Assembly (NCBI RefSeq): GCF_009392895.1
Contig: NZ_CP045488.1
Coordinates: 1,736,001-1,800,000 of the forward strand
Length of the DNA: 64,000 nucleotides
From: Natronorubrum aibiense
GTDB taxonomy: Archaea > Halobacteriota > Halobacteria > Halobacteriales > Natrialbaceae
Direction of reading: 5' to 3'
Part shown: positions 40,940-51,361 of the stretch, piece by piece
Position numbering within the stretch: the stretch's first letter is position 1
Layout of the letters: each line of letters begins with the position of its first letter
Notes under the pieces: model-generated
Told to the model about the DNA's origin: nothing
What the model saw: the letters and a program-made list of their open reading frames with translations, nothing else
The model's database searches: none
Translations under genes and position numbers: made by a program

Positions 40940-41003
40940 TCGTCGAGACCGAGTCCCACGCCGGTCCCAACGTGGCGGGATTGATTACGGCGTCGCGCCA
41001 CGT

Positions 41004-41060
41004 ATCGCGTATGCAAACCCACATCGTCCCGGTCGGGTTCGACTACGACCGGCTGATCGC
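41004..41060 (+). repeat. attL: left 57-bp attachment repeat
   Basis: Identical to 50452-50508. It covers 7 bases before and 50 bases from the ATG of the regulator gene, so the recombination site lies in a protein-coding start region instead of a tRNA gene. Flanking bases differ at once on both sides. Confidence 0.88.
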
Positions 41061-41067
41061 GCCTTAG
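41011..41067 (+). pseudogene. 18-codon stub of the interrupted regulator gene
   Basis: The left repeat copy keeps the ATG and first 16 codons of the gene now complete at 50459. Two element-derived codons and a TAG follow, giving MQTHIVPVGFDYDRLIAP. It should still be transcribed from the presumed native promoter (a TATA-like ttgattac at about 40981) and could run on into the integrase gene. Confidence 0.65.
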
Positions 41068-41107
41068 TCGGCCTATATCTCTCGTCTCGGGTTTCTCGGA
41101 GATCACA

Positions 41108-42124
41108 ATGCAAGACCAGAAACTCGAGCCGATTGCACCGGATGAAGCAGTCAGTCTCTACCTTCAGGATAGAGAAAACGAATTGGCGAACGGGACGATC
41201 AAATCCTATCGGCACAAGCTGACGAGATTCGTAGAATGGTGTGACCAAGAAGAAATAGAGAATCTAAATACGCTATCGGGACGTGATATACTTCGGTTCA
41301 AACAGTCCCGGTCTAACGTGCTCAACTCTGTGTCATTAAAGGGCCAAATGGACACACTGAGGAGTTTCATTCGATGGTGTGAATCAATCGACGGAGTAGA
41401 ACAGGATCTCCACAATAAGGTCATGTCTCCTACTCTAAGCCAAGGAGACAGGGAGAGAGACATCTTGATTGATTCAGAGATCGCCAAAGATATTCTCGAA
41501 CATTTGTCCCGGTTCGAATATGCTTCACTCCATCATGCACTCCTCACTCTGCTATGGCGTTGTGGAGCAAGATCTGGAACAGTCCGTTCCTTCGATCTTC
41601 GGGACTACGAGAGAGAGAATCAAAGACTGGAGGCGAAACATCGTCCTGAAACTCCACTAAAGAACAAGAAACGAGGGGAGAGGCTAATTGCACTCAGCTC
41701 CGATGTATGCCAAGTCCTGAACGACTACATAGACCATAACCGGGAGAAGGTAACAAATGAACCAGGACGAAAGCCGTTACTCACAACTCAATTTGGACGG
41801 ATTTCAAAGTCTACTATTCGAGAAACCTGTTATCGGTGGACTCATCCCTGCCAATATAATGGCGGTGAGTGCCCACACAGTCGGGATATGGATGAGTGTC
41901 AAGCCCTGAATCCACCCAAGAAAGCACCCTCTCTATGTCCATCCTCTCGTAGCCCTCACGCTTGGAGAAGAGGTGCTATCACTCACCATCTTACTGAAGA
42001 TGTTCCTATAGAAGTTGTGAGTGACCGGATGAACGTCTCTCGAGACGTATTGGATCAGCATTACGATAGACGGTCTGAAGAGGTGAAGGTAGAACAAAGA
42101 CGGGAATATCTATCAAATATTTAG
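41108..42124 (+). CDS. tyrosine recombinase/integrase of the element
   Basis: A 338-residue site-specific recombinase. The N-terminal core-binding domain (about 10-105) is followed by the catalytic domain with Arg155 (GARSGT), Lys in KNKKRGER (about 185-191), His284-x-x-Arg287 (HAWRR) and nucleophile Tyr319 (LDQHYD). All catalytic residues are present, so it is likely active. Between Arg and HxxR lies a cluster of five cysteines (C241, 248, 255, 264, 277), probably a zinc-binding insertion. A TATA-like tatatc lies about 30 bases upstream, and a GGAG sequence lies six bases before the ATG. The gene is not split by integration, unlike SSV-type integrases. Confidence 0.93.
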   Translation: MQDQKLEPIAPDEAVSLYLQDRENELANGTIKSYRHKLTRFVEWCDQEEIENLNTLSGRDILRFKQSRSNVLNSVSLKGQMDTLRSFIRWCESIDGVEQDLHNKVMSPTLSQGDRERDILIDSEIAKDILEHLSRFEYASLHHALLTLLWRCGARSGTVRSFDLRDYERENQRLEAKHRPETPLKNKKRGERLIALSSDVCQVLNDYIDHNREKVTNEPGRKPLLTTQFGRISKSTIRETCYRWTHPCQYNGGECPHSRDMDECQALNPPKKAPSLCPSSRSPHAWRRGAITHHLTEDVPIEVVSDRMNVSRDVLDQHYDRRSEEVKVEQRREYLSNI

Positions 42125-42154
42125 ATCACGAGTCATCCGTTTCTCTAATTGATG

Positions 42155-43030
42155 TTAGTTTTCGCCAAACCACTTATCTAATGTTTCCTGTGGCTCTTCT
42201 TCCTCTAATTCTTCAAGCACCTCCATACATTCGCGACGAAATGATTGGCTGGTTCTCACGTAATAGGTTTGGCCACTTTCTTCTAATTTCCTCATATCTT
42301 CGTCCATACTCCTTTCATTAAATTTAACTAGAATATGATTTATCTTTTTAACTATTTGGGCCTTCCCCTCCGTGCTTAATAACTTCCAGTAATCATGGAT
42401 ATCACTAGCTATTTCTGTTGCATCAATTTTACCCCCATCTGTTCTTACAGAAGCAGATTCCCTAGAGATGGACTCTGACATGAGGTGTCGCAATAATCGT
42501 TGACCGATTATCGGTAGTGGATCCTCGGGAGAAAATGGATAAAACTGGGTGGGTATCTGACGAGGAATGGTGCTTGAATGGATGAGTTCATTGAGAGTAT
42601 CATCAGCAAATTTATTTCGTTTTGAAATGGTCCCTGCACTTCGATCAAACACTAAGCCAGGATCGTCAATATCCAAATTAGAAAAAGATTGGTCAAGATC
42701 ATTCATTCCCGAGTAAACTATTTCATGACTATCTATACTGTCACTCTCCGGTACTTCCCTCTTTATATTGTCTGTCTTAATATCAGAGTTCTTTTCTACT
42801 TCCTCAATTGTTAATCCATTTGTTCGACAGTCAGTCAATAAAACACGATCATGACACTGGAGAAGGATCTCCGGGTTCACTCTTTGACCTGATTTGTTCC
42901 GAAAGGAAGGGTGTAATTTTCGTAAATTATATCCTGCTCTATCTAATGGAGTTGGCCAATTCCGTGGCCCTCCCTCCGCCAGTCCAATGCACATGTTAAT
43001 CAGCTTTGACTTATCAGATAATCTGGCCAT
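42155..43030 (-). CDS. unknown protein with possible nuclease-like N-terminus
   Basis: A 291-residue protein from ATG 43030; an ATG at 43063 would add 11 residues. I do not recognise its family. The segment at residues 51-72 (VNPEILLQCHDRVLLTDCRT) has the look of a PD-(D/E)xK core: a PE/PD turn, a strand, then D-x-basic, here D67-C68-R69 with Arg in place of the usual Lys. The remainder is helical, with a Glu-rich C-terminus. It overlaps the upstream gene by 17 bases, so the two are almost surely one operon. The low GC content matches the element. A defence or anti-defence role is inferred only from the setting. Confidence 0.6.
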   Translation of the reverse strand: MARLSDKSKLINMCIGLAEGGPRNWPTPLDRAGYNLRKLHPSFRNKSGQRVNPEILLQCHDRVLLTDCRTNGLTIEEVEKNSDIKTDNIKREVPESDSIDSHEIVYSGMNDLDQSFSNLDIDDPGLVFDRSAGTISKRNKFADDTLNELIHSSTIPRQIPTQFYPFSPEDPLPIIGQRLLRHLMSESISRESASVRTDGGKIDATEIASDIHDYWKLLSTEGKAQIVKKINHILVKFNERSMDEDMRKLEESGQTYYVRTSQSFRRECMEVLEELEEEEPQETLDKWFGEN

Positions 43031-44165
43031 GCATACTCCCTTCCAGTGTTGCTTCTGAATCAAAATAGTGTTGGATGTTAGTATAAAGCCTTAGGATTAC
43101 ATTTCCACAACTGTCTTCAGGGAGATAGATTCTCATCCAATTCGGAGCTACCTCGAGGTCTAATTCATCTCCAGTATGAAGATCTACCGCTGAAACACTA
43201 TAATAATCCTCGTCAATCTGGTTTTCTAACCCCCATAATCGGAATGGCTTAGTAGAACCTAATAAAGTAGAAAAGAACGACTCAAAGTCTGTTATCTCAC
43301 GGTCAAAACTTATCAAAACTGGCTCTCCAGTGAGATTTCCACCGTACTTGTCGACCCCTCTTTTTATTGCATAATCTTCTTCAAGTGAATATAGAATATC
43401 TTTATATTTGTCTTTTATTTCTTCTATCTGATAGAAATGGCCATCAACCGAATCGCCTCTTGCGGTAAACTTCGCTGTGTGGGTAATATCTTCTAAAAGA
43501 ATTCGACCATCGTCAAATGCTCTTCTAATACCAACATTGGAGAGTGAAGTAGATTTCCCTAGTGTTTCGTCGCCACTTAATGTTGAAAGAACTTTCTTAG
43601 CGTTTTCTCCCCATAAACGCATTGACATTTTTGAGATTTCTCTCGCTGTAGGATGTTCAGAACCGTCTTCTTGGGATCTTGCCTTCTGGAATTCGTCTTC
43701 AAATTTCAGAGAGAAGCTTCTAAAATCATTTCTTGGGCTTTCTCCTATGTTCCTCAGAAAGCTATTCGAAAGCCATGAATAGTCGAGCTTGGTGAATCGA
43801 GGGAAAACGAGTTTGTCAAGCAGGCTATCACTATTTTTTGATTTTGCTAAGCTGTGTACTGCCCAGAACCTTTCATCAAGATTCTCAATATAGAATCGTG
43901 CTTTCTTATCGGAACCTAGCTTCCTAATTTGAATGTTTTCAAAGTCGCTTTCTCGAGTCTTATCCCTTTTAAGTCGATAATCTTCGGTATCCCCTAAAAG
44001 GCCTTTTGTGGTTGGCCGTTCCGACTCGATCAAGTATGATTTTAAATATGTCTCCCCTTCGTTTAGCTCTTGATTCTGATTCACAGAATCGTATGAGTCA
44101 ACCATTTTCTCTTGAAGGAGCTCTTTTAACTCCATTCTTGACGAGATCATGGCTGACCCAGACAT
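43014..44165 (-). CDS. unknown protein, first gene of a two-gene operon
   Basis: A 383-residue soluble protein without recognised domain. It is rich in Lys, Glu and Ser, unusual against the acidic host proteins, and mixed alpha/beta. The C-terminal 120 residues (PVLISFDREITDFESFFSTLLG..., DLEVAPNWMRIYLPED) look like a separate beta-rich domain. A good TATA box (tttaaata, 44190-44197) lies 25 bases upstream of ATG 44165, implying a leaderless transcript. It overlaps the following gene. The pair is transcribed away from the channel-fusion gene, with which it shares a divergent promoter region. Confidence 0.6.
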   Translation of the reverse strand: MSGSAMISSRMELKELLQEKMVDSYDSVNQNQELNEGETYLKSYLIESERPTTKGLLGDTEDYRLKRDKTRESDFENIQIRKLGSDKKARFYIENLDERFWAVHSLAKSKNSDSLLDKLVFPRFTKLDYSWLSNSFLRNIGESPRNDFRSFSLKFEDEFQKARSQEDGSEHPTAREISKMSMRLWGENAKKVLSTLSGDETLGKSTSLSNVGIRRAFDDGRILLEDITHTAKFTARGDSVDGHFYQIEEIKDKYKDILYSLEEDYAIKRGVDKYGGNLTGEPVLISFDREITDFESFFSTLLGSTKPFRLWGLENQIDEDYYSVSAVDLHTGDELDLEVAPNWMRIYLPEDSCGNVILRLYTNIQHYFDSEATLEGSMHGQII

Positions 44166-44189
44166 GTTAATGGGTATTCCCTCGGGTGG

Positions 44190-44197
44190 TTTAAATA
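44190..44197 (-). promoter_or_regulatory. TATA box of the unknown two-gene operon
   Basis: The sequence tttaaata lies 25-32 bases upstream of ATG 44165 on the minus strand. This is the spacing of a leaderless archaeal transcript. Confidence 0.5.
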
Positions 44198-44250
44198 TTC
44201 ACCTGATTCTTCTATGTTGGAAACATTGATGCCTTCTAACAATTTTATAA

Positions 44251-45783
44251 ATGAGATGCATGAACTGTGATATGGATCGATGCGGAGAAATCTTTCAGTG
44301 GTCATCTAAATACAATCCACTAGGACGAGACTTAGAAAGAACGTCTGGTGACGTAACTGCAATCTCTTTTTCGAGACAAAAGATTCGGAACCACTGTTGT
44401 TATAGAGAAACCATACCAGGAAGTGATAAGTGTTATTGGCACACAAAAAAGGAAAAAACTCAGAAGGAATTACAACAAAATCTGGGCGACCACGATGAGC
44501 CTGTTGGGAATGCCTATATTTCGGGTGAATTCAAAAATCTTGATCTTCTAGTAGAGTTTCCAGAAGCTACTTTTGAAGACTGCACATTCAAGAATGTTGA
44601 TTTCACCGGGTCTCTTTTCCCGAATGCAGTTTTTATGGATGTTGAATTAACTGATTTCAAATTCGATCAATGTGTGCTACAGGGTTCAAAGTTAGATAAT
44701 GTGAATGATATGAAACAAGGTAGAAGTAGTCTCCAACAATGTGACTTAAGAGGTACTATCCTATCTAATGTTGACTTTAAGGGGGGAAATTTTGAAGGAT
44801 CCGTGTTTAATGTGAGATCTAGATTAGAGAACAGCACAGAGTTAGATGGTGCAAATTTTCAAAATGCGGATCTCGAGGAAGTAAAGTGGCAGAATATTGA
44901 TCTAACTAAATCGGATTTCACAGGCGCGAACGTTCAAAATGCAAACTTCTCTAATAGTACTTTAGTTCAAACTATATTTAGCCATGCAAATTGCTTAGGT
45001 GCGGATTTTTCTAATGCGGATCTTGAGGGTGCGAAATTTGATCAAGCATACTTAGTTGGATCAAATTTTATTGGTTCCGAATACCATAATGCAGTATTAT
45101 CTGATGTTCAAATTGATCATACTACAGAATTTGATGAAACGTCTTCGTATCAACGAGAAGATGCACCTCCCGGGAAATTCGAGAATAGATCCGTACGCGA
45201 TCTCAAAGCTTTGTGGACATATAGGACGTTACAGAACGTATTTAGAGAGAACGGGATGATAGAAAAATCTAGACAATACTATGTGAAGGAGAAGGATTTG
45301 CGACGCGAGCAATACTGGCGACAATTTAGAAATGAAGCTACATTATTGGAAAATCAAGATGATTTTTTGCGGATTTCTCTTGAAGACCGACCTAAACTGA
45401 AATGGCTGGTGTTTCTATTCCGAGCACTTCGAGCAGAGTCATCTAAATGGATAATAAGATTTGGAGAAGGTATTGAAAACTTAATCATATCTGCAATACT
45501 AACCATAATTGGATTCGGTATTGTTTATCCATTAACTGGTCTGAATACTTCAACTGGCGAATATAGATTTAAGTTCCCTGTCGAATTGAGTGATCTTCTA
45601 AATGTCTCTTGGAGTCCTTTTCTTGAAGGGCTTCTTTTTAGTGTTCTAACTTTTACACCAGGTAATAGTGGTGATATTACTCCTATAGGATTCTCCCAAG
45701 TATTGGCAATCATAGAAGCTTCACTTGGAACAATTTTCTTCGCTCTAGTGGTCTTTGTATTAGGTCGTCGTACCACACGGTAG
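44251..45783 (+). CDS. zinc-finger/pentapeptide-repeat/ion-channel fusion protein
   Basis: A 510-residue protein in three parts. The N-terminus has Cys and His residues (C11, C49, C50, C61, H64) suited to a zinc finger ending in KCYWHT. Residues about 85-290 are pentapeptide repeats of the A(N/D)F/LxX type (GANVQNANFSNSTL, GADFSNADLEGAKF), which fold as a right-handed beta-helix. After a charged helical linker, the last 100 residues hold two transmembrane helices around a pore loop TFTPGNSGD (467-475), as in two-helix potassium channels but without the TxGYG filter. An ATG at 44272, 28 bases after a ttataaa, may be the true start. It could be a gated membrane pore. Confidence 0.75.
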   Translation: MRCMNCDMDRCGEIFQWSSKYNPLGRDLERTSGDVTAISFSRQKIRNHCCYRETIPGSDKCYWHTKKEKTQKELQQNLGDHDEPVGNAYISGEFKNLDLLVEFPEATFEDCTFKNVDFTGSLFPNAVFMDVELTDFKFDQCVLQGSKLDNVNDMKQGRSSLQQCDLRGTILSNVDFKGGNFEGSVFNVRSRLENSTELDGANFQNADLEEVKWQNIDLTKSDFTGANVQNANFSNSTLVQTIFSHANCLGADFSNADLEGAKFDQAYLVGSNFIGSEYHNAVLSDVQIDHTTEFDETSSYQREDAPPGKFENRSVRDLKALWTYRTLQNVFRENGMIEKSRQYYVKEKDLRREQYWRQFRNEATLLENQDDFLRISLEDRPKLKWLVFLFRALRAESSKWIIRFGEGIENLIISAILTIIGFGIVYPLTGLNTSTGEYRFKFPVELSDLLNVSWSPFLEGLLFSVLTFTPGNSGDITPIGFSQVLAIIEASLGTIFFALVVFVLGRRTTR

Positions 45784-45804
45784 CTCGTTTTTCAAAGGAG
45801 TTAC

Positions 45805-45902
45805 TTTAATTCGAAACCGATCAAAGCGTCAGCCGACGTCCCCGTTATCTTGGTTTAATTCGAAACCGATCAAAGCGTCAGCCGACGTCCCCGTTATCTT
45901 GG
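45805..45902. repeat. perfect 49-bp tandem direct repeat (two copies)
   Basis: Two adjoining identical units, 45805-45853 and 45854-45902. Each starts tttaattcgaaaccg and ends gttatcttgg. The unit is more GC-rich than its surroundings and does not resemble a CRISPR repeat; there is no spacer. It lies 21 bases after the channel-fusion gene. It could be a duplicated 3' element, a recombination product or a protein-binding site. Confidence 0.85.
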
Positions 45903-46031
45903 TAAAGCGGAAGCATATGGAAGATGTCAAGCTTAGTAGTAATCTTTGAAAAATCACTAAAAACCGAAGAGCAACGCGAGCGTTCGCAAGATGGGGAGAT
46001 GGAGATTACTGGCATGTAGGAAACCTCTCCA

Positions 46032-46232
46032 ATGCAGTCCGAACTGGTGAAGATTGGACATGTTCATTGGGCCAATGAACTATTCGAGCCCAAAAGCCGG
46101 CGACTCACTGATGATCTCTATCTTTGGGTTCATGCATGGGATCGAAACAACGACAGTGGTCCATATCGAAGGCCTGCTACCTTAGCAGAAGTGGGTCCCT
46201 CTTCCACAACAGTTCAACTTGGGCTTTTATAA
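46032..46232 (+). CDS. doubtful small reading frame in the element
   Basis: A 66-residue frame (MQSELVKIGHVHWANELFEPK... to ...TTVQLGLL). It has no clear TATA box or ribosome site and no recognised domain. Neighbouring frames upstream also look partly coding, so it may be the tail of a frameshifted gene. Reported only because it is the one sizeable frame in a long gap. Confidence 0.25.
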   Translation: MQSELVKIGHVHWANELFEPKSRRLTDDLYLWVHAWDRNNDSGPYRRPATLAEVGPSSTTVQLGLL

Positions 46233-46369
46233 GTAACCTACTATCCAACATCCGAATTTAACCGTCAAAAGCTCTATTCCGCCGAATCCTGCAACATAAT
46301 ATGATTTCCTCTCCTCTCTCCCTTTTTCACCTATACAACACTAATCTAGACAATAACGACAACTTGAAA

Positions 46370-47929
46370 CTAAATATTCTTTCGAGTTATATTCGAAGAA
46401 GAGTAATTAGGCGTCCAATCGTATTTGTTACAAGCTGATCGGATATGTTTGTTTGTTAACTTTGGGTCGTAGTTGTCGCCGTATTGTTCCTTGAACCAAT
46501 TTCTGGTTCCGTCTACTCTATTAATAGATAATTGGCGCAGCATCACGAACAGACGCTCTCCATGTGTGAGAGATTCAATTCCCTTCTCTTCGGCTTGTTT
46601 CTGCAATCTAAATGCTCTAGATTCGTTCTGCTTCGAAGGGGGATGATCATTTCTGTAGTTTGATGGATGATATCCTGATTCACCTGTATCGTAGTCAAAT
46701 GCTTCTAATGTCTCGATAGCCTCGCTAAAGGAACCTGATCCCGCTATGATTTTTGCTACAAAGATTCGGGGTTTGTAGATCCGACTTTTTCTGGATTGGC
46801 CGCCGATGAGAACAAAGAAATCACCTTCTTGGATTCCTTTCGTGGTGAATTTCTCATAGTCTGGTTTCGAAAGTTGGATCGGACGATATTCTCTCGCTTC
46901 GATTTGATATTTTCGATCACATGCCCAAAAGTTATACAATTGACAAGGGACGAAAGTCTGAGTCTGCTTGCCGTTGTAATCCCCGTTCGCATCTCGTTTC
47001 TCTCCGAACGGTCCATCAATAACCTTGGCTATCAGCAGGCTTCGATTCCCGTTTCCTGCATTTGCGTATGGACTTACCGGGTGCGAATAGTGTGCTTTCC
47101 ACTTCTGGTGATTAGCTCCCCGATATGGTTCGAATCGTTCCCATGAATTAAGACCGGGATCGATAGGTTCGTTCTCTGTATTCGTCTTTGGTTCCCACAG
47201 ATGATTTTCAGGGTCCTTGAGTACATCTGAAGGGAACGTATCAGTAAGCACTTCAGCAAACGATTGTGGCTTCTTCACGTCGCTTTCAGTGGCTTCCTTG
47301 ATGATTCTCTCATGGGACCATTCGGGTTCGATCTTAACTTTCGGTAGTTCTGTTTGTTCGTGGCTAGTTCCGGGAAGTCTGAATAACCGCTTCTTAGTAT
47401 ATATTTGAGAGTCTATGTCGTACTCGAACTCTTTCGCCATCTTTCGCAATATTTCCAAGTCATTCTGTTTCACGAAATTCGGAAGATGAGCGTGAATTGA
47501 TCGTCCCCCGGAAAAGTACCACGTACAGGCAGAGGGATCTGTATTTAGATAATTCAAGCAAAAATCTTCAATCCAATCAATTTGTTTTTCCAATGAAATT
47601 TCTGCATCGGATTCGATATAGAGGGGATAATAGACTCTTCCTTCGGCTTCTGCTTTATCTTGAAGCTTCTTGGCGATGTTCTTACCAGAAACAGCATATG
47701 GGTTCTCCAATTTATGTTGTTCCTTGATTTCATCGAAACCTAAATAATAAATTGGAGACCCAAAAGACATCTCCTGTGATAGTGATTTAAAAGCACTCTG
47801 AAGAATCGGCTCTGGATTCGTTGGGGATTCTGCCAATCGGATGTATGGCTCATATTGCGCCGTTTCTGCTTCATTCTGTTCCGTAGTGGATTTCTGCTTG
47901 ATCGGAGCTGTACCAGTTTGTGACTTCAT
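46370..47929 (-). CDS. primase-like replication protein of the element
   Basis: A 519-residue protein. Residues about 55-200 look like an archaeo-eukaryotic primase domain: a strand ending in YPLYIESDAE (acidic pair near 106-108) and the motif FSGGRSIHAHLP (139-150), which matches the family's SGxRGxH site for nucleotide binding. The C-terminal 200 residues are unassigned and could contain a DNA-binding domain. No helicase motifs are seen. It starts two bases after the stop of the small gene upstream, so they are translationally coupled. It is probably the replication initiator or primase of the element when excised. Confidence 0.65.
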   Translation of the reverse strand: MKSQTGTAPIKQKSTTEQNEAETAQYEPYIRLAESPTNPEPILQSAFKSLSQEMSFGSPIYYLGFDEIKEQHKLENPYAVSGKNIAKKLQDKAEAEGRVYYPLYIESDAEISLEKQIDWIEDFCLNYLNTDPSACTWYFSGGRSIHAHLPNFVKQNDLEILRKMAKEFEYDIDSQIYTKKRLFRLPGTSHEQTELPKVKIEPEWSHERIIKEATESDVKKPQSFAEVLTDTFPSDVLKDPENHLWEPKTNTENEPIDPGLNSWERFEPYRGANHQKWKAHYSHPVSPYANAGNGNRSLLIAKVIDGPFGEKRDANGDYNGKQTQTFVPCQLYNFWACDRKYQIEAREYRPIQLSKPDYEKFTTKGIQEGDFFVLIGGQSRKSRIYKPRIFVAKIIAGSGSFSEAIETLEAFDYDTGESGYHPSNYRNDHPPSKQNESRAFRLQKQAEEKGIESLTHGERLFVMLRQLSINRVDGTRNWFKEQYGDNYDPKLTNKHIRSACNKYDWTPNYSSSNITRKNI

Positions 47930-47931
47930 TT

Positions 47932-48075
47932 CTAACTCGAATATTCGTTAATCACATCTGCCATCTTCTGCTGGAGCAAGTCGTCATAGGTGGAGAATCT
48001 CTCGTTAGCTTTCGCCATAGCGAGTGCCCTTTTCGTTTCGGGTCGAACCGAAATAGTAGCATATTCAGAAGTCAT
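47932..48075 (-). CDS. small ribbon-helix-helix-like regulator
   Basis: A 47-residue protein (MTSEYATISVRPETKRALAM... to ...VINEYSS). The ATISVRPETKRAL strand-helix, then ANERFSTYDDLLQQKMADV, is the pattern of CopG/VapB-type ribbon-helix-helix proteins. It directly precedes the primase-like gene with two bases between, as copy-control or autorepressor genes precede replication genes on plasmids. A TATA box lies at 48102-48109, and a perfect inverted repeat lies between it and the ATG. No toxin-like partner is adjacent. Confidence 0.7.
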   Translation of the reverse strand: MTSEYATISVRPETKRALAMAKANERFSTYDDLLQQKMADVINEYSS

Positions 48076-48085
48076 TTTCACATAT

Positions 48086-48102
48086 ACTTACGCATTGTAA
48101 GT
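48086..48102 (-). promoter_or_regulatory. inverted repeat operator candidate
   Basis: Perfect 6-bp arms acttac/gtaagt around a 5-base centre. It ends at the edge of the TATA box (48102-48109) and lies just upstream of the small regulator's ATG (48075). A bound ribbon-helix-helix dimer there would block transcription, the usual autoregulation of such genes. Confidence 0.5.
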
Positions 48103-48109
48103 TTATAAA
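48102..48109 (-). promoter_or_regulatory. TATA box of the regulator-primase operon
   Basis: The sequence tttataaa lies 27-34 bases upstream of ATG 48075 on the minus strand. It fits a leaderless or short-leader transcript. Confidence 0.5.
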
Positions 48110-48451
48110 TGCATTGAAATTGGAGTTTATAATTGAATTTGTAAATTCATATCTCATTTCTAACTCACTAATTGGAGTATGTATATTGGACTTGAAACGG
48201 AGGTTGAGGGTGTTTGAAGAGGATAACTTTCTGGGAAATTACGATGAACTTCCCAATAAGTTTGGATGGCATAACTCGAGAGATGTTGTTTAGAAGCGTT
48301 ATACCGGTGATTTAGTAGAACTGATTATCATATACGCTACAATAGGGATAAAGAACCGCTCTTGGAGAGGGTTTGGCTCGGATTTTATCGTTTCCTGTAT
48401 AACGGTTAAACGCAATTTCTGCGTGCTTTATACGACTTAATTGCTAAAATC

Positions 48452-48868
48452 CTAATTCGTGGGATACCTGTCCCTGAAGTCCTCAAGTGTTGTCCCGATC
48501 AGTTTATTGTAAAGACACTCTGCATCCCAGAGATCAATGGTGGTGTCGCTATTTCGCTCAATTTTGTCTGCCGTTTCTAACGCACCCTTTGTGAAGGAGA
48601 CTGCAGTTACAGCTGTTTCTGATACATTGTGTTCAGATGCAGCGCCTGCGATTTCACGGATTTCACCCGGTCCAACACCCTCTCGATTAACTACTTCAAC
48701 AATCACCTCTCTCCTTCCTCGATTCAAAATAACATCATGACCACCGTCTCCTGTCGCTTTCGTTCGAGTTGTGTCCCACTCTTCGTATTCGAGGATATCT
48801 TGTACTACCTTTTCGAGTGTAGCGTGATCATGACTCGATATCCAGTTATGAAACGATGGTGGAACCAT
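48452..48868 (-). CDS. Mrr-fold protein lacking the catalytic lysine
   Basis: A 138-residue single-domain protein matching the Mrr endonuclease fold: TGDGGHDVIL (Asp45), a strand REVIVEVVNRE, then VGPGEIREIAGAA, VSFTKGALETAD and DLWDAECLYNKL. In active Mrr enzymes the strand ends QxK; here the triplet is E58-V59-V60, so the metal-site lysine is missing. The protein may bind DNA without cutting, or use another residue. It starts at ATG 48868, with a TATA-like ttttaatagg 23-32 bases upstream. Confidence 0.72.
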   Translation of the reverse strand: MVPPSFHNWISSHDHATLEKVVQDILEYEEWDTTRTKATGDGGHDVILNRGRREVIVEVVNREGVGPGEIREIAGAASEHNVSETAVTAVSFTKGALETADKIERNSDTTIDLWDAECLYNKLIGTTLEDFRDRYPTN

Positions 48869-49178
48869 ACCAATGGTCTCCCATACCGGCCCTATTAAAA
48901 TCCCACAATCCCCACCGAGAATTTATGCTATATGTATACAATCGCTCCCCAAGAACCAATAATTGTATACATCAGATTGGCTAATTCCTTGTTAATTCAA
49001 TTTGAAAAGCTGGGGAGATTTTTCACTTGTAGATTTTCGGCTGGCAAATCTCCTTCAGAAGAAAAATTTTTGATTGCTCGGAACAGTAAGGAGTTGATTG
49101 ATTAGAATCCTATCGTAAATGAGAAACCAACTTTCTTTTATATTTCACATGCATAATTTAGACGATCTGTGTTTTTAG
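48869..49178. other. AT-rich intergenic region with paired palindromes
   Basis: Between the Mrr-fold gene's start and the membrane protein gene's stop. Contains the Mrr gene's TATA box (48891-48900), the tgtataca pair (48932-48972) and a weaker inverted repeat (ggagattt at 49014-49021, aaatctcc at 49046-49053). No coding sequence seen. Confidence 0.45.
48932..48972. promoter_or_regulatory. 11-bp inverted repeat made of two tgtataca palindromes
   Basis: Arms atgtatacaat (48932-48942) and attgtatacat (48962-48972) are perfect complements. Each contains the self-complementary octamer tgtataca, and the octamers lie 31 bases apart, about three helical turns. It is 30-70 bases upstream of the Mrr gene's TATA box. 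It looks like a double operator or a replication/partition site. Confidence 0.5.
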
Positions 49179-50153
49179 TTAATTATTTATCTTTTGACTA
49201 TCAGACTCTTCAAACCCTTCTCGGTCAACGTAGATCTCGAGATCATCTGCTAGTTCCTCTAGTTCGTCCATCAGTTCATTCTGATGCTGCTGTAGCTCGT
49301 TACCGAGGTCAGTGGGCAGTTGATCTTGGAGGAGGCTGCTGTATTCAAGACGTGTTTCAAAGGAGCTGTCAAGTAGCTGTTGTTGAAGACTCGCGATTTT
49401 CTGTTTATCGTCGCTACGACTCTTGTTTGACCATGCTTTAAGAGAAGCGACAAATCCTTCTTCAATTTCTTCTTCTTTTGTTTCATCGTCAATGACTTGA
49501 TTGTACCAGCGTTTGACTTGGTTGACTAGGGCCATTCGAAGTGGCCAATCTAGTTCATCAAGTTCGTCCGTGTCAACAGCGACAAATGCATCTCCTGCAT
49601 ATATCACACTCATATTTGCGAAGATATCTGTCCGGCTTTCACCAGCAGTATTTAGTGTTCTTTCACTGACTTCTCCTGTGATTAGAACACGAATCACGTC
49701 CCGTTGGTGAATCGGAAACGAGGAAGTCTCTTCCTGCATATAAAAATACCCTCCGGCAAGAGTCAACCCAACCCCAAGAAGTGCAATAATCGGATCCCCG
49801 AGTCCAACTAATGTCAAAAGTAACCCTACGATAATCCCTAAAGCTCCGTGTGGTCCTTTTGGTTTATATGTGAGTGATCCAGATCCAATTTCACGCCATT
49901 CAGAGGTTGCAACAAGTCTTCCCTTTACCGTGCCGGTCAATTCTCCTACGTTCTCGCTTTCTATATCGAGGTTTGCCTCTTGACTCCCATGTGTATGGTA
50001 TTTGAAATTATCTCCGTCTTGAATTTCTTCCAGGCTGCGTTTTAATCTCCGATAAAATTGTCTGGGGTTAATTCCATTATATTCGCCTTCGACAAATTTG
50101 GTTGCTTTGCGAAGGTTTTGCCGTGTATATTCCCATGATCTGTTCTTGTCCAT
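49179..50153 (-). CDS. two-helix membrane protein with coiled-coil tail
   Basis: A 324-residue protein from ATG 50153 (MDKNRSWEYT); ATG 50162 would add three residues. A soluble N-terminal region of about 100 residues precedes two transmembrane helices forming a hairpin (about 105-140). A beta-rich part (about 145-215) and a helical, Glu/Gln-rich C-terminal region follow, likely a coiled coil. No family is recognised. The last gene before attR, transcribed towards the Mrr-fold gene. Confidence 0.6.
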   Translation of the reverse strand: MDKNRSWEYTRQNLRKATKFVEGEYNGINPRQFYRRLKRSLEEIQDGDNFKYHTHGSQEANLDIESENVGELTGTVKGRLVATSEWREIGSGSLTYKPKGPHGALGIIVGLLLTLVGLGDPIIALLGVGLTLAGGYFYMQEETSSFPIHQRDVIRVLITGEVSERTLNTAGESRTDIFANMSVIYAGDAFVAVDTDELDELDWPLRMALVNQVKRWYNQVIDDETKEEEIEEGFVASLKAWSNKSRSDDKQKIASLQQQLLDSSFETRLEYSSLLQDQLPTDLGNELQQHQNELMDELEELADDLEIYVDREGFEESDSQKINN

Positions 50154-50289
50154 TACAGTCATTCTAAATTATGTATGACGTAAATAGCTTTGTAGATGAT
50201 TATCAAATTCGATAACTTGTTAGATTCGTTCCACACAATATTATTATAATTGTACACTACTTATAAATTAATCACTCCTTCTATTCCAG

Positions 50290-50338
50290 TAGAGTTAGAG
50301 CTAAGGGATTTCCACTCTACGATTCTAACGAGAAATCC
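50290..50338. other. interleaved inverted repeats near attR
   Basis: Two short inverted repeats overlap in order: tagagt (50290-50295) with actcta (50314-50319), and ggatttc (50306-50312) with gaaatcc (50332-50338). As RNA they could form a pseudoknot-like fold or two alternative hairpins; as DNA they may be arm sites for recombination. They lie in the 290-base AT-rich gap between the last element gene and attR. Confidence 0.3.
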
Positions 50339-50399
50339 GAGGCGGGAGCAAGGGCCAACAGTAAGAATGTGGAATTGAACGGTGCGTGATCTGATATAG

Positions 50400-50410
50400 G
50401 ATATTTAAAT
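50400..50410 (+). promoter_or_regulatory. element-borne promoter (TATA box) for the downstream regulator
   Basis: The sequence gatatttaaat is a strong TATA match about 50-60 bases upstream of ATG 50459 and lies inside the element. It predicts a transcript start near 50435 and a leader of about 25 bases crossing into attR. It would replace the host promoter now separated by 9.4 kb. Confidence 0.5.
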
Positions 50411-50451
50411 CCTCTGTAGATCAACACCATTACAGCGTCTACCTCCCAACA

Positions 50452-50508
50452 ATCGCGTATGCAAACCCACATCGTCCCGGTCGGGTTCGACTACGACCGG
50501 CTGATCGC
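50452..50508 (+). repeat. attR: right 57-bp attachment repeat
   Basis: Identical to 41004-41060. It includes the last 7 bases before the start codon and the first 50 bases of the regulator gene, which continues intact to the right. Confidence 0.88.
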
Positions 50509-51361
50509 CCCACTGGTTCGCGATCAGATCGACGTCGATAGCGTCATTTTGCTCGAGGGTGCCGTCGGCAGCGAGGCCAACGTCGAGTACTCGCGTCGGC
50601 TCTCGAAGAAACTCGAGACGGACTTTCGGAACTTACTGGGGGCGAGTACGGAACGGTTCGTGCTGGCGGACGTGTACGACTACGACGCCGCCTTCGAGCA
50701 GGCCTACGAACTCATCACCACGGAACTCGACGACGGAAACGAGGTCTGGGTCAACATCGCTGCGATGCCGCGAACCGTCAGTTTCGCCTTTGCGAACGCT
50801 GCCCACTCGCTGATGGTCGAACGTCAGGACGACCGCGAGCATATCCACACCTACTACACCGCCCCCGAGAAGTACCTCGAGACGGAACTCGCCGAGGAAC
50901 TGCGCGAGCAGATCACGCTGCTTGAGTCGTTTCGCGACGCGGGCGAGATCGACGACGAACGGATCGACGCTCGCCTCAAGAGCGCACAGGAGTTACTCGC
51001 TGAGTTCGACGAGCGCGGAACGACCATCGGCGCGAAGGAGATCGACGGCAAGCACATCGTCGAGCTCCCGGTGGCCTCGTTTTCGAACGTCAAACCCTTC
51101 GAGGAACTCATTCTCTACAAACTCGGCGAGGACGGCGAGTTCAACTCGGTCTCGGAACTCGCCGAAGCGCTCGCTCGCGAACTGAACGAGGAGTACACTG
51201 ACAGCTTTCGCTCGAAAGTCATCTACAACGTGGATCGGCTCGGCCCCGGCGGTAAAGGCTACATCGAACGCGAAGAACACGGGAAATCCTACCGAACGCG
51301 TCTTTCGCGCATCGGCGAGTTGTGGGTCCGGGCTCACTCCGATAGCGGCCTCGAGCAGTAA
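50459..51361 (+). CDS. CARF-like/winged-helix regulator (HFX_2341-type)
   Basis: A 300-residue protein. The N-terminal 140 residues form a Rossmann-like domain: MQTHIVPVGFDYDRL, a strand VDSVILLEG, and VWVNIAAMPRTVSFAFANAA, which occupies the place of the ligand loop in CARF domains such as that of Csa3. A helical spacer follows, and the C-terminal 90 residues are a winged helix (ILYKLGEDGEFNSVSELAEAL). I associate it with the haloarchaeal HFX_2341/DUF6293 family, from memory. It may sense a nucleotide and regulate transcription. Its first codons coincide with the element's attachment site, so its promoter is foreign although the coding sequence is complete. Confidence 0.75.
   Translation: MQTHIVPVGFDYDRLIAPLVRDQIDVDSVILLEGAVGSEANVEYSRRLSKKLETDFRNLLGASTERFVLADVYDYDAAFEQAYELITTELDDGNEVWVNIAAMPRTVSFAFANAAHSLMVERQDDREHIHTYYTAPEKYLETELAEELREQITLLESFRDAGEIDDERIDARLKSAQELLAEFDERGTTIGAKEIDGKHIVELPVASFSNVKPFEELILYKLGEDGEFNSVSELAEALARELNEEYTDSFRSKVIYNVDRLGPGGKGYIEREEHGKSYRTRLSRIGELWVRAHSDSGLEQ

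Follow-up and report, generated by a model that had tools for sequence, protein, structure and literature searches.

In Natronorubrum aibiense, the DNA immediately upstream of crr, the gene for a CARF-like regulator, forms the right junction (attR) of an integrated element. The SNJ2-type integrase of this element is, as far as sequence comparison tells, dedicated to the 5′ end of crr. We consider it likely, at a probability of about 0.74, that integration at this site is a reciprocal swap of promoters, in which crr receives a look-alike substitute from the element.

The integrated element and its target gene

Within the window (the whole 64,000-nt stretch of DNA that was analysed), comparison of the sequence with itself revealed an exact 57-bp direct repeat, consisting of a 7-nt leader and the first 50 nt of crr, which bounds an element of ~9.4 kb (41061-50451; Table 1). 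GC content is ~0.40-0.49 inside the repeats versus 0.60-0.68 in the surrounding chromosome. Where congeners lack the element (G106, G108 and others), a gene for a bat-type regulator directly adjoins crr, and the native promoter GGGATTGATTACG is found ~30 nt upstream of the crr ATG. The sequence-only reading had placed the element boundary at 50452 and the presumed native promoter at about 40980, and had proposed a comparison with relatives bearing an empty site. This comparison bore out both placements: the 45 bp upstream of the crr stub match the same-genus empty sites of G108 and G106 at 43/45 and 38/45 positions, versus 19/45 and 17/45 for the 45 bp upstream of the intact gene, and GGGATTGATTACG is conserved in these empty sites. 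Since the empty sites match the left junction and not the right one, all of the sequence preceding 50452 belongs to the element.

Table 1. Features of the element and of its target gene in the window.
Feature	Coordinates	Strand	Basis or remark
Native crr promoter core GGGATTGATTACG	40977..40989	+	same distance to ATG in same-genus empty sites; now 5′ of stub and integrase gene
attL copy of the 57-bp att core	41004..41060	+	exact repeat
crr stub, 18 codons and TAG	41011..41067	+	translation
SNJ2-type tyrosine recombinase, crr-specific clade	41108..42124	+	PF02899/PF00589; SNJ2 match; tree
Cargo: two proteins of uncharacterised PHROG families, pentapeptide-repeat/ion-channel protein, primase-like protein, Mrr-type nuclease, unknown protein	42155..50162		
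Conserved arm of the element right end (...GGCCAACAGTAAGAATGTGGAATTGAACGGT)	50331..50383	+	similar in right ends of ten genomes
Candidate TATA box 1, TATTTAAA	50402..50409	+	sequence; predicted start near 50430-50435, ~28-nt leader
Candidate promoter box 2, GATCAACACCATTAC	50419..50433	+	-40 to -26 in the leaderless register
attR copy of the 57-bp att core	50452..50508	+	exact repeat
Intact crr, HFX_2341 family, CARF and DUF7776	50459..51361	+	NCBIfam NF051475, PF19810, PF24989, PADLOC CARF3

The regulator gene itself is intact, as had been read from the sequence: it encodes 300 amino acids, its first codons are unchanged at attR, and, the stub aside, it is present once in the genome. Its product scores 573 bits against NCBIfam equivalog NF051475 (cut-off 500), matches Pfam PF19810 (HFX_2341_N) above the cut-off as well as PF24989 (DUF7776) and PADLOC CARF3 (E 1.9e-159), and is 78% identical to a Haloferax crr product. 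A crr relative was found in 124 of the 125 genomes of the family. Sequence search matched no solved structure to Crr, and the locus had no Rfam match for a structured RNA. The gene shares its NCBIfam equivalog with crr (HFX_2341) of Haloferax mediterranei. The product of the latter acts as a global regulator: cas genes are strongly repressed when it is over-expressed, repression of transport genes is described as well, and deletion has modest effects; Crr also occurs in CRISPR-negative species (PMC11434293, Turgeman-Grott et al. 2024). In H. mediterranei the HFX_2341 locus, where the gene has a 'putative transposable element' as its neighbour, is the strongest hotspot of self-spacer acquisition; the study reports no integrase or promoter exchange there (PMC11434293).

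The integrase clade and the displaced host promoter

The window's integrase is 46% identical to the SNJ2 integrase over 99% of the query, which falls within the definition of the SNJ2 type (identity of 30% or more across 60% of the protein; PMC8371274), and its catalytic residues R155, H284, R287 and Y319 (R ... H-x-x-R ... Y) are invariant in the integrase alignment. The open reading frame that follows it is on the opposite strand and had no match to an accessory recombination gene; many SNJ2-type relatives do without such genes (PMC8371274). Unlike SNJ2 relatives, which include those of pleolipoviruses and use tRNA 3′ ends and short att sites, it has a 57-bp core lying in crr, and there is no tRNA gene in the window.

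All integrases found whose identity to the window's reaches 70% sit behind a crr stub. Eight copies are intact (G000, G005 (Haloarchaeobius sp. FL176), G050, G119, G262, G296 (Halomarina rubra), G397 and Haloferax profundi), a broken one is found at crr in the metagenome-assembled genome QH_7_65_31, and decayed elements occupy crr in G079, G094 and G425. In the tree the crr-targeting integrases form a single clade with support of 100/100, whereas integrases at 55-58% identity (G192, G357, G170, G362) are not at crr. By eye, a tRNA T-arm-like sequence lies just 5′ in three of these four loci; no complete tRNA gene was detected in the short loci. The position of the core, the lack of a tRNA gene in the window and the tree together point to a target-switched clade within the SNJ2-type family, and related elements in several archaeal families occupy this exact site. 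A literature search, with most subscription journals outside its scope, returned no description of crr as an integration site and a single paper that mentions DUF6293, and a review of archaeal integration lists few sites in protein genes and none of the crr kind (PMC8371274). The same genome also has a second SNJ2-type integrase (45% identical; G000:C1:2608656-2609648; loci L034, L044), beside a tRNA-Ala gene.

The integrase ATG at 41108 lies 97 nt past the stub ATG. This spacing is 85-97 nt in 10/10 attL sites examined, and in 8 of the 10 no stop codon closes the stub frame before the integrase start. The displaced host crr promoter is, by sequence, directly 5′ of the stub and integrase gene. 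It had been thought to drive only the 18-codon stub, which is probably wrong because the integrase ATG is so close; the old crr promoter now probably reads into the integrase gene. The exchange would be reciprocal because an integrase gene at this distance would be read from the host promoter after integration and from the element promoter in the circle. Viral contigs contained no free circular form with the order promoter, core, integrase gene, and plasmid records yielded just more distant integrases and distant DUF6293 relatives.

We think it unlikely that the swap is instead one-way, with crr acquiring the element promoter, the integrase gene using a promoter of its own between the stub and its ATG, and the host promoter driving the stub alone. 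The integrase could have its own promoter, since a weak TATA-like sequence, TATATC (41074-41079), lies ~30 nt upstream of its ATG in the window. However, the box reads TGTATC in the related G094 element, type-B elements (see below) have no evident comparable TATA-like box, and the stub frame that stays open across the integrase start at most sites also argues against separate expression.

The cargo proteins matched no structural protein in PHROGs or Pfam, and by this comparison the element is not a pleolipovirus provirus, which would be marked by spike and replication genes. One cargo protein searched in phage records and the primase-like protein searched in plasmid records found no relatives. 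Genes at 48452-48868, 44251-45783 and 46370-47929 include those for the Mrr-type nuclease, the pentapeptide-repeat protein with an ion-channel domain and the primase-like protein; another element (L035, 2240-12360) encodes, by eye, a Dam-like methylase, restriction-like proteins and a helicase-like protein. With such cargo, these elements may be defence carriers.

Promoter-like right ends of the elements and their probable exchange over evolution

The sequence that the element places before crr is promoter-like, conserved and in register, and is predicted to drive the gene. The sequence-only reading had named a strong TATA box inside the element. A box, TATTTAAA, is indeed there; taken by itself it is only moderately unusual, with three 8-mers of its kind in the 9.4 kb of the element. 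Other TATA-like sequences replace it in related ends, and the adjacent GATCAACACCATTAC is better conserved among the type-A ends and scars G094, G008, G039 and G040; either box may serve crr in the window. The resemblance of the whole 45 bp before the ATG is not due to chance: the type-A end of the window agrees with further ends of elements, or with probable scars, at 34/45 (G094), 33/45 (G008) and 32/45 (G040) positions, where the 99% maximum of a shuffle control was 24.

Element ends also resemble crr promoters that look native. Type-B ends (G005, G050, G119), which carry ACTGGTGCTTTATATAAACGCC or near variants, match native-looking crr promoters of other genera at 31-34 of 45 positions when aligned by their distance from the ATG (99% level of the shuffle, 23-24); the G005 end, for example, matches G104 and G007 at 33/45 and G017 at 32/45. 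The type-A end of G084 matches the crr promoters of its genus-mates at 34/45. The window's right end, in contrast, shows only a borderline match, up to 24/45, to high-GC native promoters of other genera. Many crr promoters (G397, G061, G262, H. profundi and others; e.g. L159) contain an inverted repeat spanning the TATA box (CTGGTACTTTTTATAAGTACCAG, GATGGTTTTTATAACCATC, GGTAGTTTTTATAACTACC), and type-B ends retain this dyad of native promoters. Its arms vary yet stay complementary (0.636 of arm cells versus 0.555 for shuffled partners, 0/300 as high; at most 0.405 at other centres), and this covariation suggests that the repeat is an operator, perhaps for Crr itself.

Elements appear to have exchanged these promoters repeatedly. 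Of 15 Haloferax species, 9 have at crr either an element or a scar that bears an element-type promoter; the crr coding sequence, in contrast, is vertically inherited. G424, G432 and G436 have one upstream gene in common, at 54 bp from crr, and also a common native promoter, which is present in G430 and G434 as well; in eight species this gene is 338-3026 bp from crr, with a gap of mostly low GC and element-type promoters. Haloferax profundi has an intact element at crr. The promoter of Haloferax G433 agrees at 40/45 positions with that of G079, which belongs to another family, as against 17/45 with its congener G432 (coding 41/41), and G079 agrees with its own congener G074 at 19/45 (coding 174/183). 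Each of the two therefore differs from its congener at 26-28 of 45 promoter bases where the coding sequences agree at 95-100%, and because of this discordance crr promoters seem to move between families when the gene does not. Insertions of another kind could account for some of the upstream gaps, and the 'native' promoters of other genera could include old scars. Scars without stub and integrase still keep the element promoter. In G094 (L039, 738-3700) a 3-kb remnant with a truncated integrase and an asparagine-synthase-like gene remains between stub and crr, and the element-type promoter is kept. In G050 (L036) the attL promoter is of a second element type, CTACTTGAGGGGATTGATAAAG, common to the low-GC DNA before crr in the congener G049 (L058); the G050 element is probably a new insertion into an older scar.

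As the sequence shows, recombination within the first ~50 nt of crr does not alter the protein and puts the element's right arm, with its crr-like promoter at native spacing, in place of all upstream DNA. According to the reciprocal scheme, crr would stay expressed from this promoter. When integrated, the integrase gene would be transcribed from the host crr promoter; in the circle, the element's crr-like promoter would precede the stub and integrase gene and drive the latter, and neither partner would be harmed by the exchange. As the element decays, the borrowed promoter would be kept because crr needs it, so that the promoter would travel horizontally and the crr coding sequence vertically.

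It is quite unlikely that all this is a neutral by-product, the start of crr having been chosen for its conservation, the arm serving to bind integrase and crr transcription after integration being incidental. The att core is highly conserved coding DNA, and arms of tyrosine-recombinase att sites commonly bind Int. Sequences resembling the window's arm (GCAAACATCGGTGATGTGNAATTGAACGGT-like) are found in G094, G005, G050, G119, G397, G262, G296, G422, G079 and G084; ends that differ in their promoters still share the arm upstream of the TATA region, part of which may be integrase-binding DNA, not promoter. Against this reading stand the match of the last 45 bp to crr promoters in register, the native dyad in type-B ends, and the promoters kept by scars.

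Host regulation, known parallels and significance

The sequence-only reading had left open whether the insertion takes control of the regulator or merely supplies a substitute promoter at little cost to the host. It was right that the promoter of a CARF-like regulator is replaced and a substitute supplied, and missed the probable reciprocity. The comparison favours the second option, because the ends are crr-like at native spacing, type-B ends keep the dyad and scars retain the promoter. A hostile take-over, in which Crr, raised or mistimed by the element promoter, would protect the element by repressing cas and other defence genes, is very unlikely. The target does belong to the HFX_2341 family (NF051475), and over-expressed HFX_2341 does repress cas genes strongly in H. 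mediterranei (PMC11434293). However, the window's host has no cas1, intact elements are found in cas1-positive hosts in 2 of 7 cases versus 131 of 392 genomes across the order (a weak test, given the small count), element ends resemble ordinary crr promoters, and Crr is a global regulator that occurs also in CRISPR-negative species (PMC11434293). A search of the element's own genome for spacers against it matched only the element itself. CRISPR evasion as the driver was rejected, the host being without cas1 and the occupied genomes not enriched for it. Finally, a direct repeat of a gene start could by itself come from segmental duplication or an assembly artefact, an explanation of negligible probability given that the same junctions with an integrase recur in independent genomes of several families and that congeners have empty sites.

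Promoter-swapping insertion at a 5′ end is already known from SXT (prfC), from dusA islands and from pTN3 integrases. Like the crr elements, SXT and IMEVchUSA3 enter a protein gene at its 5′ end and supply a new promoter, as shown experimentally for IMEVchUSA3 at dusA (PMC8409611; dusA family, PMC4482086), and at crr, too, the target frame is restored at attR. These insertions alter the N-terminus of the product (in dusA, 35 residues with 61% identity), whereas the crr core is identical and the protein unchanged; further, the substitute resembles a crr promoter, the displaced host promoter faces the integrase gene, the integrase family differs and the hosts are archaeal. The pTN3-like integrases of Thermococcales share the exchange of promoters between target and integrase: attB is the 5′ half of the target, and after recombination the integrase promoter drives the tRNA gene (PMC8371274). 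They differ in that they target a tRNA gene and that integration splits their suicidal integrase gene; the crr elements target a protein-coding regulator and keep their integrase gene whole.

We offer as a speculation, which we judge rather improbable in its full form, that this lineage of elements wires its integrase, both integrated and excised, to the promoter of a probably self-regulated CARF repressor, that the trading of promoters sets the level of the repressor, and that haloarchaeal defence regulation evolves in this way. The reciprocal swap would provide an archaeal case in which one conserved regulator, a repressor of cas and of many metabolic genes, has its promoter replaced time and again by mobile elements, and in which an integrase family has moved from tRNA genes to a protein gene with the host gene left unbroken. 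It would account for the sharp differences between crr promoters of sister species, and pairs within a genus that have native, occupied and scar promoters would constitute a natural experiment on the expression of a CARF repressor.
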